Shown: piece after piece, positions 13,044 through 15,670 of the stretch
Numbering within the stretch: the stretch's first letter is position 1
Layout: the number at the start of each line of letters is the position of its first letter
DNA from: a virus
Direction: 5' to 3' (one strand)
Length of the DNA stretch: 35,602 bases
Virus record (IMG/VR): IMGVR_UViG_3300037042_000622
Coordinates: 1-35,602 of that record
Made by a program: the position numbers and the translations under genes
The notes under the pieces: generated by a model
Told to the model about the DNA's origin: nothing
The model's input: only the letters and a program-made list of their open reading frames with translations
Database searches by the model: none

Positions 13044-13506
13044 AGTTTTCACCTACAACCATCTTTGCTGCTGTAACTGAAGTTTCTGGAAAGTTCTGTG
13101 GATTGCGTAAGATTCGTTTAGCCCATGCATGATAGTCGGTTTGCGGCTTTAATCGTTCATGTACATACAAAGCCAGCTTATCAGCGTGAGCCTTATTGCT
13201 TTCGTGGTCTACTGGTGCAGGTAGCGCCTTAAAGTCTTGGATGTTACTTGTCACGCAATGCTTTAAAAACTCATCGCAGTTAGGTGCGTATTGGTATTTA
13301 GCTTCTAACCCAGCTTTAATGCGTTCTGCACTAATGCCAGCAAGTTCTGATGACCATGTAGCCTTTGCGTTTGCAATTCCTACGTCTTCACCGGCATCGT
13401 TTACCTGACCAATCTTAAACTTATCAAAAAAGTTATTTCCAAAACGACCATGCAATCGCATAAAGATACGTTCAACCCATTCTGCTGGTAAATTAAAAGT
13501 CTGCAT
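13030..13506 (-). CDS. Replication protein, helicase-loader-like (lambda P type)
   Basis: 158 residues. The region WVERIFMRLHGRFGNNF, then ATWSSELAGISAERIKAGL and YAPNCDEFLKHC, is the pattern of phage replication proteins of the lambda P group: a helical domain acting with a phage initiator to recruit host DnaB. Downstream is a helical tail (HADKLALYVHERL, then YHAWAKRIL). It overlaps the replisome-organiser gene upstream by 14 bases. The phage has no helicase or polymerase gene in view, so recruitment of host replication proteins is expected. Confidence 0.65.
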   Translation of the reverse strand: MQTFNLPAEWVERIFMRLHGRFGNNFFDKFKIGQVNDAGEDVGIANAKATWSSELAGISAERIKAGLEAKYQYAPNCDEFLKHCVTSNIQDFKALPAPVDHESNKAHADKLALYVHERLKPQTDYHAWAKRILRNPQNFPETSVTAAKMVVGENYEHV

Positions 13507-14269
13507 TATTATCTCCTACTAATTTAATGTGAGCCGTTTGCTCTGCAATGTACTGTGGCTTAAATACTGAAAGAGCTGCATTTAATGTTGACGCTTGCTT
13601 ATCTATACGTCTAGCCTCTTGCCTTCTTACCCAATTGCGCCATGTAGCAAACCAATCTGTCTTTACCGCAGTAGAACCACTTTTACTAATCCAATAGTCT
13701 TTAAATGTATCAGCTACAGATTTAACATTAAGCTCTGGTCGTTCTGTTTGACAGAATTTTATATATTCAACAGGTATTATCCAATCTTGTGAAAGGCGAG
13801 AGCCTTTAGTATTTTGTTTTTTGCTGTCTATAGGTAATAGGGAATCAGTAATAGGGATAAGGGAATCAGCATGACTAGTTCCGTCTTTGTCGTGATTTGT
13901 CACGATAGTTTGTAACTTATTGATATTACTATTGCTTTCATCAAAATCAGGTATTGTACTTCCAGCCTTTCTTTCGTTAGGATGTGGGTTCTGATGTTTC
14001 TCAAAATTAAGTATTTTTATGTAGTTCTGTTCGTTGACATTATAAGTCGTTATAAATCGTGACTGCTCAAGATTAGTAACGATTGCATCAATATCACAAT
14101 TATCGTAAGGCAACAATTGAACCTTTAATCTCTTCGCACGATACTCAATACATCCACGATAGTCCGCAACAGTCCACATTGCTATAAAAGCTAATCTTTC
14201 AATTGGTTTTAATTCAGCAAGGTCTTCATTCTGAAAAAATGCTGGCTTAATATTTCTTGCTCTAGCCAT
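13493..14269 (-). CDS. Replisome organiser-like initiator (winged helix + DnaT-like C-terminus)
   Basis: 258 residues from the ATG at 14269, chosen for its GGAGG 5 bases upstream. The N-terminal winged helix (MARARNIKPAFFQNEDLAEL, ERLAFIAMWTVADYRG, LPYDNCDIDAIVTNLE, YIKILNFEKHQNPHPNE) is widespread in phage replication genes. The C-terminal third (DWIIPVEYIKF, TFKDYWISKSGSTA, DWFATWRNWVRRQ) resembles DnaT-type primosomal domains. It should bind the phage origin. The middle is Asn/Thr/Ser-rich and could contain origin repeats; I see no clear iterons. Confidence 0.75.
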   Translation of the reverse strand: MARARNIKPAFFQNEDLAELKPIERLAFIAMWTVADYRGCIEYRAKRLKVQLLPYDNCDIDAIVTNLEQSRFITTYNVNEQNYIKILNFEKHQNPHPNERKAGSTIPDFDESNSNINKLQTIVTNHDKDGTSHADSLIPITDSLLPIDSKKQNTKGSRLSQDWIIPVEYIKFCQTERPELNVKSVADTFKDYWISKSGSTAVKTDWFATWRNWVRRQEARRIDKQASTLNAALSVFKPQYIAEQTAHIKLVGDNNADF

Positions 14270-14618
14270 GATTGCCTCCATGTATAACATTATTTTCTAG
14301 CACATAATAATGCTCACAATGTGAAACATTATCGCAAATTTCTTTTATGTAATTACATAACCAAAACACTTCATCATCTGTTAACTTAAAAAATTCTCTT
14401 GATGCATTAATTCTGTTGTCTGCATATATTTCATGTAATTCATTTTCAAGTCTATTTGGATTGCTAATCTCTCCATAAAATACAACTTCAAAACTTTGAG
14501 GCATATTTGTTTGTGATGATAGTTCTTTTGCTCTTTGCTGCGGTGACTTTAAAGTATGCCCAACCTTATATAAATTTGGCATAGATGAATTCTTTAATAC
14601 ATATACAAATCCATACAT
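14262..14618 (-). CDS. GIY-YIG superfamily nuclease (T5orf172/Mug113 domain)
   Basis: 118 residues. Features: GFVYVLKNSSMPNLYKVGHT (the GIY-YIG-equivalent strands), Arg29 in SPQQRAKEL, FEVVFYGEISNPNRLENELH (Glu58/Glu60, His62) and REFFKL. This is the T5orf172/Mug113 branch of GIY-YIG nucleases, common in phages and often free-standing. It may be a homing-type or repair nuclease. GGAG lies about 8 bases before the ATG. The candidate RNA at 14632-14714 ends in a U tract just upstream. Confidence 0.8.
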   Translation of the reverse strand: MYGFVYVLKNSSMPNLYKVGHTLKSPQQRAKELSSQTNMPQSFEVVFYGEISNPNRLENELHEIYADNRINASREFFKLTDDEVFWLCNYIKEICDNVSHCEHYYVLENNVIHGGNHG

Positions 14619-14631
14619 ATCTTTGCTCCAT

Positions 14632-14714
14632 AAAAAAAGCCACTAGACAAAACCCTCCAGTTTTTTAGACTGGTTGCAGGACACCGAGTAGGTGCAGGGC
14701 TTTGACTAATGGCT
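14632..14714 (-). ncRNA. Candidate structured RNA with three-way junction and U tract
   Basis: Read leftward, a 19-position outer helix pairs 14696-14714 with 14638-14656, with one true mismatch and two to three G-U pairs. It encloses two hairpins: GCACC/GGTGT (14681-14695, 5-base loop) and CCAGT/ACTGG (14657-14673, 7-base loop). They are separated by 7 bases, with no linker to the outer helix. A run of seven U (14632-14638) follows at once. On the plus strand the wobble pairs would be C-A mismatches, so the minus strand is the likely sense. It could be a stable small RNA with a built-in terminator, or a leader or attenuator for the GIY-YIG gene. It does not match a riboswitch class that I can name. 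Confidence 0.55.
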
Positions 14715-14768
14715 ACTCTAATAACATCGCCTGCAAGCGATAAGCTATACTTTAAACTAACTTTTAAT

Positions 14769-15116
14769 CTATTGCAAGTATTTTGTGATTGCCTCTTTAG
14801 CTTCATCAAATCCGTAGCAGACAACTGTCTTGTAGTTCATTGAACTAGCTGCTGCCATAAACTCTTTTTGCGAGTCAGATACTTTGCCAGCCTTTGCCTT
14901 CATCTCAATAAACATTCCGTGGTACTCACCTTTAGGAATCATTAAGAATAGGTCGCTGACTCCAGCAAGCACTCCCTCTGCCTTTAAATTGACTGCCGTT
15001 ACTATGTGTCGTGACCCACCGTTAGGAATTGCCCACAAGTGATACTTGTATTGCTTGTATTGCATTCTAAACCATGTGATTAGCATTACCTGTTCTTGAT
15101 GTTCTGATACTTTCAT
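14769..15116 (-). CDS. VRR-NUC domain nuclease
   Basis: 115 residues from ATG 15116; a GTG 12 bases upstream is possible. Motifs: SEHQEQVMLITWFR (Glu7), AIPNGGSRH, LKAEGVLAGVSDLFL (Asp55) and GMFIEMKAKAGKVSDSQKEF (Glu71-Met-Lys73, Gln83). This is the compact PD-(D/E)XK type called VRR-NUC, known as a structure-specific nuclease that can cut Holliday junctions in phages. It is the first gene leftward from the divergent control region. Confidence 0.88.
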   Translation of the reverse strand: MKVSEHQEQVMLITWFRMQYKQYKYHLWAIPNGGSRHIVTAVNLKAEGVLAGVSDLFLMIPKGEYHGMFIEMKAKAGKVSDSQKEFMAAASSMNYKTVVCYGFDEAKEAITKYLQ

Positions 15117-15228
15117 AATTATTTTCACTTTATGTATAAATAATGCTTGTATTTATGTTTTATGTATGCCATTATTACACATCGCAGCAAATTATGCGAT
15201 TAACTTAATAGCAACGGTGGAGATAAAA
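15117..15228. promoter_or_regulatory. Divergent early control region with repeated AT-rich boxes
   Basis: This gap separates the leftward and rightward early modules. TTTATGTAT occurs at 15129-15137 and 15159-15167, 30 bases apart (about three helical turns). The first copy is part of a 12-base palindrome TTTAT-GT-ATAAA (15129-15140), which could be an operator. A leftward promoter with TTGCTG as -35 and ATACAT as -10 is conceivable, but no strong match was found on either strand. Confidence 0.4.
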
Positions 15229-15414
15229 ATGACTAGAATAGATGATGGCTTTACAACATATAACGTATTACGCAATAACGGTGTTTATGGTTCTGAAACA
15301 AGTTTAGTTCATACATTTAAAACTAGATTTGATGCTGATTGTTATGCTGAAAATTTAAATAAAAATATTAGCGATGATGAACCAGTATATTTTTTTGTTG
15401 AAGTAGTATATTAA
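15229..15414 (+). CDS. Unknown small protein, first rightward gene
   Basis: 61 residues from ATG 15229, with GGAG about 7 bases upstream. It is Asp/Asn/Tyr-rich, with a beta-like N-terminal half (DDGFTTYNVLRNNGVYG), a helix (TRFDADCYAENLNK) and a final strand (PVYFFVEVVY). No family recognised. It shares an almost identical ribosome-site leader with the next gene. Confidence 0.6.
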   Translation: MTRIDDGFTTYNVLRNNGVYGSETSLVHTFKTRFDADCYAENLNKNISDDEPVYFFVEVVY

Positions 15415-15439
15415 TTAAATAGAAACGGTGGAGATAAAA

Positions 15440-15670
15440 ATGTACACAATCAAATCTACAAAATTCCCAAAACAAAAATGGGACATCTTAGAAAACGGTA
15501 AAGTTGTCAACTCTACCTACAATTCCTACAAACTAGCTTGCGCCTTACTTAACCAATACCAAATGGTTGACAAGGTATACACACGAGTTGCTGAAATAGA
15601 AGCATCAGTTTGCTTGTTTAAAGCTAAATGTGACCGTGAAACAAGGGAGGCTCGCAATGCTACCAGATAA
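15440..15670 (+). CDS. Unknown small protein, second rightward gene
   Basis: 76 residues from ATG 15440. A strand-rich N-terminus (YTIKSTKFPKQKWDILENG) is followed by a helix (SYKLACALLNQYQ) and a charged C-terminal helix ending in Arg. Its leader matches that of the preceding gene, and the overall strand-strand-helix plan is similar, so the two may derive from an old duplication although the residues have diverged. Confidence 0.6.
   Translation: MYTIKSTKFPKQKWDILENGKVVNSTYNSYKLACALLNQYQMVDKVYTRVAEIEASVCLFKAKCDRETREARNATR

Follow-up and report, generated by a model that had tools for sequence, protein, structure and literature searches.

The antisense immunity RNAs P4 CI and P1 c4 (RF01695) are small structured phage RNAs that lie in the leaders of early operons and control premature termination. 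The antitermination RNA put, of the HK022 type, which is likewise structured and opens a phage early operon, also influences termination; it suppresses downstream terminators and carries no U tract of its own at its end. The fluoride riboswitch has a pseudoknotted domain whose rearrangement is opposed to that of an intrinsic terminator (PMC11077080). The RNA element described here is predicted to be laid out like the fluoride (crcB) and ZTP (pfl) riboswitches, in which a pseudoknotted domain comes first and an overlapping terminator stem competes with it before the gene (PMC11077080, PMC10085676, PMC2864571).

The element lies in a stretch of 35,602 bases (the window) from the IMG/VR virus record IMGVR_UViG_3300037042_000622, in which a portal protein of the SU10 type is also encoded. 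Since the terminase was 62% identical to that of Methylophilales phage Venkman, a methylotroph is the likely host of this phage. The order on the minus strand was VRR-NUC gene, RNA element, GIY-YIG gene and replication initiation gene (Table 1). Across the divergent promoter region, a near-identical leader pair (AACGGTGGAGATAAAAATG) was noticed on the plus strand at 15205-15230 and 15412-15441, each copy located 5' of a small plus-strand gene of unknown function. When the window and 12 related loci (loci and contigs are designated here by L numbers) were compared with Rfam 15, no family was found at gathering score, and a permissive search (E ≤ 10) returned only noise of the miRNA and CRISPR type, in agreement with the first impression that the RNA fits no recognised class. 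No description of such an RNA was found in the open literature searched.

Fold and anatomy of the RNA

The preliminary description of this DNA had proposed a three-way junction, with a long outer helix, two hairpins, a 7-nt linker and seven U, and had assigned it to the minus strand on the basis of pairs that become G-U only there. The minus strand did fold in this way. The minimum free energy of 14632-14714 was -37.1 kcal/mol on this strand, whereas dinucleotide shuffles gave -18.6 ± 3.0 (z -6.2, 0/200). The plus strand reached a z of only -2.0 in the same kind of comparison, by which a plus-strand RNA was ruled out. The element first described is therefore real, but its extent had been drawn too short: it begins about 27 nt further 5', and a further hairpin (P0) and two pseudoknots (PK1 and PK2) had been overlooked.

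The complete element comprises about 110 bases (minus strand, 14741-14632) in the order P0 hairpin, K2, P1 5' strand, P2, K1, P3, P1 3' strand and U tract, with the 18-position outer helix P1 enclosing P2 and P3. PK1 is formed by the P0 loop and the P2-P3 linker, and PK2 by the strand 5' of P1 and the P2 loop, so that the loop of each of the two hairpins P0 and P2 pairs with the strand following the other. The 7-nt inverted repeat TTGCAGG/CCTGCAA was also recovered mechanically. Pairing of the A-rich P3 loop with the U tract was considered and ruled out, as L089, L095, L330 and L376 have a GAAA loop instead.

Table 1. Positions in the window of the RNA parts, signals and neighbouring genes (loops in parentheses)
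Feature	Position	Strand	Remarks
VRR-NUC gene	14769..15116	-	PF08774; upstream neighbour of the RNA element, not a constant partner
Sigma-70-like promoter	14749..14777	-	TTGCAA (14777-14772), 17-nt spacer, TAAAGT (14754-14749); 8/12 consensus matches
P0 hairpin	14726..14741	-	AUCGC(UUGCAG)GCGAU; 6-nt loop is the PK1 5' half; helix 98.9% paired (covariation)
K2 strand	14714..14718	-	GAGUA; PK2 5' half, pairs with P2 loop UACUC
P1 outer helix, 5' strand	14696..14713	-	GCCAUUAG-U-CAAAGCCCU, central mismatch; 14/16 pairs with changes on both sides
P2 hairpin	14681..14695	-	GCACC(UACUC)GGUGU; loop is the PK2 3' half; closing G-U pair invariant
Linker C and K1	14674..14680	-	K1 CUGCAA; PK1 3' half, pairs with P0 loop; helix 98.5% paired
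P3 hairpin	14657..14673	-	CCAG(UCUAAAAAA)CUGG; loop A-rich or GAAA in relatives
P1 outer helix, 3' strand	14639..14656	-	with U7, intrinsic-terminator stem
U7 tract	14632..14638	-	predicted terminator; U tract of 5-9 in type A-C relatives
Shine-Dalgarno and ATG of next gene	14616..14631	-	AU-GGAG; 13 nt from U tract to ATG
GIY-YIG / T5orf172 gene	14262..14618	-	Pfam PF13455, PF10544; between leader and replication gene
Replication initiation protein gene	13493..14269	-	phrog_12556, phrog_16167 (replication initiation); presumed target operon

Relatives and covariation

A protein search with VRR-NUC yielded 80 viral loci, 79 of them usable. By hand count, a diverged element followed the VRR-NUC stop in 38 of the 79, and a weak match in L070 raised this figure to 39/79. 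These elements were sorted into type A (the window, L014 and L036), type B and type C. Pattern scans added further contigs, many with other neighbour genes, and two covariance models, whose E-values are rough owing to a short calibration, were also employed: the first, built from 11 sequences, recovered L089, L095/L096 and L105, and the second L106 and L330/L331, together with weak matches in L116 and L359. All of the relatives are metagenomic contigs. A minus-strand match in L149 was discarded because it reads a true element in reverse complement, and L107 and L366 were excluded as weak and differently shaped.

Weak covariance-model matches of similar plan were located at L070:615-719, L107 minus 1538-1643, L116:4234-4342 and L359:5807-5933; in these, an upstream strand pairs with the terminator-stem junction. 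Both pseudoknots were retained, by eye, in L116 and L359, and these two sequences suggest a wider superfamily.

Matches came from 19 records, each with a single copy of the element. Because the TerL proteins of element-bearing records ranged from 94% to 32% identity to that of the window, several giving no TerL match, the RNA is not confined to a single lineage. No tyrosine integrase was found in the seven records tested. Nucleotide searches of 50,697 phage records gave a best E of about 2 for the window element, with no annotated phage, and no match for the type B and C relatives. A search for host copies, which covered 150 genomes from a single methylotroph family and 369 from the class to which it belongs, was insensitive and had no positive control; it returned no match.

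Across dozens of metagenomic phage contigs, all six helices were retained despite heavy sequence divergence, and every helix was backed by compensatory changes. Their absence from homologues, named in the preliminary description as evidence against the element, was clearly not what was observed: in the model-fitted alignment, double changes occurred in 30 of the 40 pairs, 93.5% of the cells were paired, and the covariation score was 0.606, compared with 0.171 after shuffling and at most 0.096 when the alignment was slid. PK1 was represented by 11 distinct haplotypes with 64/66 pairs complementary (shuffled mean 51), and PK2 by 14 five-pair haplotypes with 70/70 pairs (shuffled mean 45), values reached in 0/20000 shuffles in either case; six divergent sequences in these counts were divided into segments by eye, a procedure biased towards pairing. 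Examples of PK1 were UUGCAG/CUGCAA, UUGACG/CGUCAA, UUGGAA/UUCCAA, UUGGCA/UGCCAA and UUGGUC/GACCAA. For PK2, 17 sequence combinations were seen, almost all complementary, such as GAGUA/UACUC, CUAGUA/UACUAG, CGGAUA/UAUCCG, UGGGUA/UACCCA and UGCAGCA/UGCUGCA. In the model-fitted alignment only 68% of PK2 was paired, which probably reflects a model ignorant of PK2 and a shifted P2 loop in type C.

An independent test, not used in defining the structure, was provided by contigs carrying the K1-P3 string CCAACATCCGAAAGGATGAGA. Six were found, two of them already known, and the other four all had P0, PK1 and PK2 (4/4), although the pattern covered K1-P3 only; new PK2 pairs appeared among them (GUAGUA/UACUAC and CACAGUA/UACUGUG). 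Invariant or nearly so were the UUG/CAA half of PK1 (its first pair being G-A in three sequences), the G-U closing pair of P2, the C-G foot of P3 and the U-A top of P1, and the mismatch in the middle of P1 was present in most relatives. Judged from these alignments, a chance origin of the structure is out of the question, and the sequences almost certainly represent a class of structured RNA.

Promoter, neighbouring genes and other leaders

Transcription of the element is predicted to start at or just before P0, with the -35 box of the window falling within the last codons of VRR-NUC. A sigma-70 match at the same position was found in 44 distinct upstream sequences with a summed score of 369, compared with at most 251 in 200 shuffles, and 19 of the 44 scored at least 9/12 against 1.4 expected; the scan required a -10 ending 3-12 nt before P0, a range set after viewing examples, and many of the sequences are related, so these figures are descriptive. 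In nearly all relatives the -10 ended 4-8 nt 5' of P0 (12 in L095). L155 and L162 have TTGACA-17-TATATT, and no good sigma-70 match was found at this position in L105. At the other end, a start codon was located 10-15 nt 3' of the U tract in 44/44, preceded by a Shine-Dalgarno-like sequence in 43/44. The weak and divergent match L070 has no adjacent start codon and no gene directly after it.

The genes so placed belong to several unrelated families, mostly replication initiators, DnaD-like loaders and primosomal or O-like proteins. In some relatives a GIY-YIG, HNH or ABC ATPase-acetyltransferase gene separates the leader from the replication gene; in L045, L046 and L185, the gene directly after the element (about 378 aa) combines an ABC-type ATPase with an acetyltransferase (phrog_11143, unknown function). 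A bond between the RNA and VRR-NUC was ruled out by the different upstream genes of many relatives (L146, L148, L155, L162, L190 and L330 among them), and a bond with one replication protein by the several downstream families and by a search of 80 bacterial loci encoding relatives of the window replication protein, in which no element match was found.

The proposal that the RNA forms a mobile unit with the homing-type GIY-YIG nuclease gene fared poorly. The two adjoin in the window and in L036, but in no other relative examined; in L014, which has the same type A element, the replication gene follows directly, and in nearly all relatives the RNA occurs without the nuclease gene. A protein search of viral contigs with GIY-YIG found nothing. 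RNA and nuclease gene do not travel together, and a mobile unit is extremely improbable; with GIY-YIG after the element in only two phages, this gene is a passenger.

It had also been asked whether the element is absent where its flanking genes are conserved, and this proved partly true. By hand count, the 79 VRR-NUC loci comprised 39 with this RNA (one weak), 33 with a different structured leader and 7 with none of these. Type D (13/79) bears a terminator and a loop-loop complement, GGUCAAG/CUUGACC, that changes to GGACAAG/CUUGUCC; no Rfam match was obtained for it. In the first 135 nt or so after the VRR-NUC stop, type D loci (L009, L010, L013, L019, L020, L022, L025, L029, L030, L040, L042 and L071) show two hairpins with complementary loops, U8, and an equally spaced Shine-Dalgarno and ATG. 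Type E (12/79) is long and branched and lacks a U tract. In type E loci (L011, L028, L047-L049, L051, L056, L057, L060 and L062-L064), it extends about 180 nt after the VRR-NUC stop, with a few compensatory changes and with short open frames that differ among members. Type F, an int-alpA-like RNA, was found in 8/79 (L073-L080). In L074 and L075, the only two tested, the int-alpA model (RF02996) scored 32.5 and 35.3 bits at L074:1673-1738 and L075:5376-5444, the gathering score being 35.8, and these elements are possibly an extension of that family. The distribution of leaders suggests that structured control elements have been exchanged in this slot, which follows VRR-NUC and precedes the replication gene.

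Candidate modes of action and comparison with known systems

Among the functions first proposed, that of an attenuator was the best supported, given the leader placement before genes, the promoter and the terminator. The element is a same-strand leader directly before a gene, with a promoter (by consensus only) upstream, and at the sequence level an intrinsic terminator overlaps the folded domain. In L148, L152, L164 and L181 the gene next upstream is divergent, and the replication genes would therefore have to be transcribed from the leader promoter through the terminator; this context is the strongest argument for control in cis. We consider it somewhat probable that the RNA is a riboswitch-like attenuator leader of the replication operon, in which the pseudoknots oppose the base of the terminator.

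Under this attenuator model, host RNA polymerase would start at the predicted promoter beside P0. Judging by the order of the parts, P0, then P2 with PK2, and then PK1 could form before the P1 3' strand exists, and this strand would then compete for the P1 5' strand. Closure of P1 to its base would create an intrinsic terminator, with a stop at U7 and an RNA of about 105-110 nt. PK2 would tie the strand at the P1 base to the loop at the P1 top and would not be expected to coexist with complete closure of the base; if the pseudoknots held, the polymerase would read into the Shine-Dalgarno and nearby start codon, and the replication initiator would be made. The balance might be set by a ligand, by a phage or host protein, or by transcription speed. 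Termination, competition and the direction of control are all inferred. Duplex energies were -3.0 to -7.5 kcal/mol each for PK1 and PK2 and -7.3 to -12.3 for lower P1, so that the sum of PK1 and PK2 is comparable. K2 abuts the P1 foot and the P2 loop lies beyond the P1 top; in a crude A-form model, PK2 required 2-6 open pairs at the P1 foot, and only 2-4 with free orientation. Attenuation with read-through is favoured because PK1 and PK2 could form before the P1 3' strand, because the energies are comparable and because of the resemblance to the fluoride riboswitch. On the other side, no obvious ligand pocket was seen, nearly all invariant residues being base-paired. Apart from the pseudoknots, no alternative antiterminator helix was conserved, and since P1 alone is very stable, termination might therefore be constitutive.

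The last point leads to an ordinary strong terminator with a promoter, past which a fixed fraction of polymerases would go without any switching. The outer helix and U tract do make a good intrinsic terminator, and apparently unrelated leaders (D, E and the int-alpA-like F) occupy the same slot. A plain terminator, nevertheless, has no need of P0, PK1, PK2, the invariant G-U closing pair or the invariant junction, all of which were kept across TerL identities of 94% to 32% or with no TerL match, and this explanation is distinctly unlikely. The small regulatory RNA of the preliminary description is possible, the element being bracketed by promoter-like sequence and terminator, but is less well supported than an attenuator. 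It would be a free-standing structured RNA of about 105-110 nt, acting in trans through a protein bound to it (host RNA polymerase, a ribonuclease, or a defence or replication protein). The very stable compact fold, the single copy in each matching record and the lack of a following gene in L070 are consistent with it. The start codon that lies so close behind the U tract in each of the 44 sequences, always on the same strand and before unrelated genes, would be needless in trans; moreover, base-pairing with a target is unlikely, as there is almost no unpaired conserved sequence and the pseudoknot sequences vary freely. A role in trans is, on this evidence, rather unlikely.

If the attenuator reading is extended, the RNA could be a new riboswitch class that senses a molecule or a state of the infected cell and gates DNA replication in lytic aquatic phages, as one of several exchangeable switch classes (A-C, D, E and int-alpA-like). 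We regard this extension as tentative. The constant place before replication genes in several TerL lineages suggests an RNA-gated onset of replication in abundant aquatic phages, and with at least three other structured RNAs in the slot, exchangeable RNA control of phage replication is a testable idea.

Among the described systems, the int-alpA RNA (RF02996) occupies the same slot, from VRR-NUC to the replication gene, in the related phages L073-L080, but does not match the window element, and homology is not evident. The P4 CI and P1 c4 RNAs differ in that the window RNA has no Rfam match to them and its loops pair within the RNA, and the put RNA is set apart, by description, by the U tract in which the window RNA ends. 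There was no covariance-model match to the Rfam family of either the fluoride (crcB) or the ZTP (pfl) riboswitch. Unlike in these two, the outer helix of a three-way junction, one that carries two reciprocal loop-strand pseudoknots, serves as the terminator stem of the window RNA. This RNA family, absent from Rfam, presents an unusual architecture, in which reciprocal loop-strand pairing is wrapped around the terminator helix.
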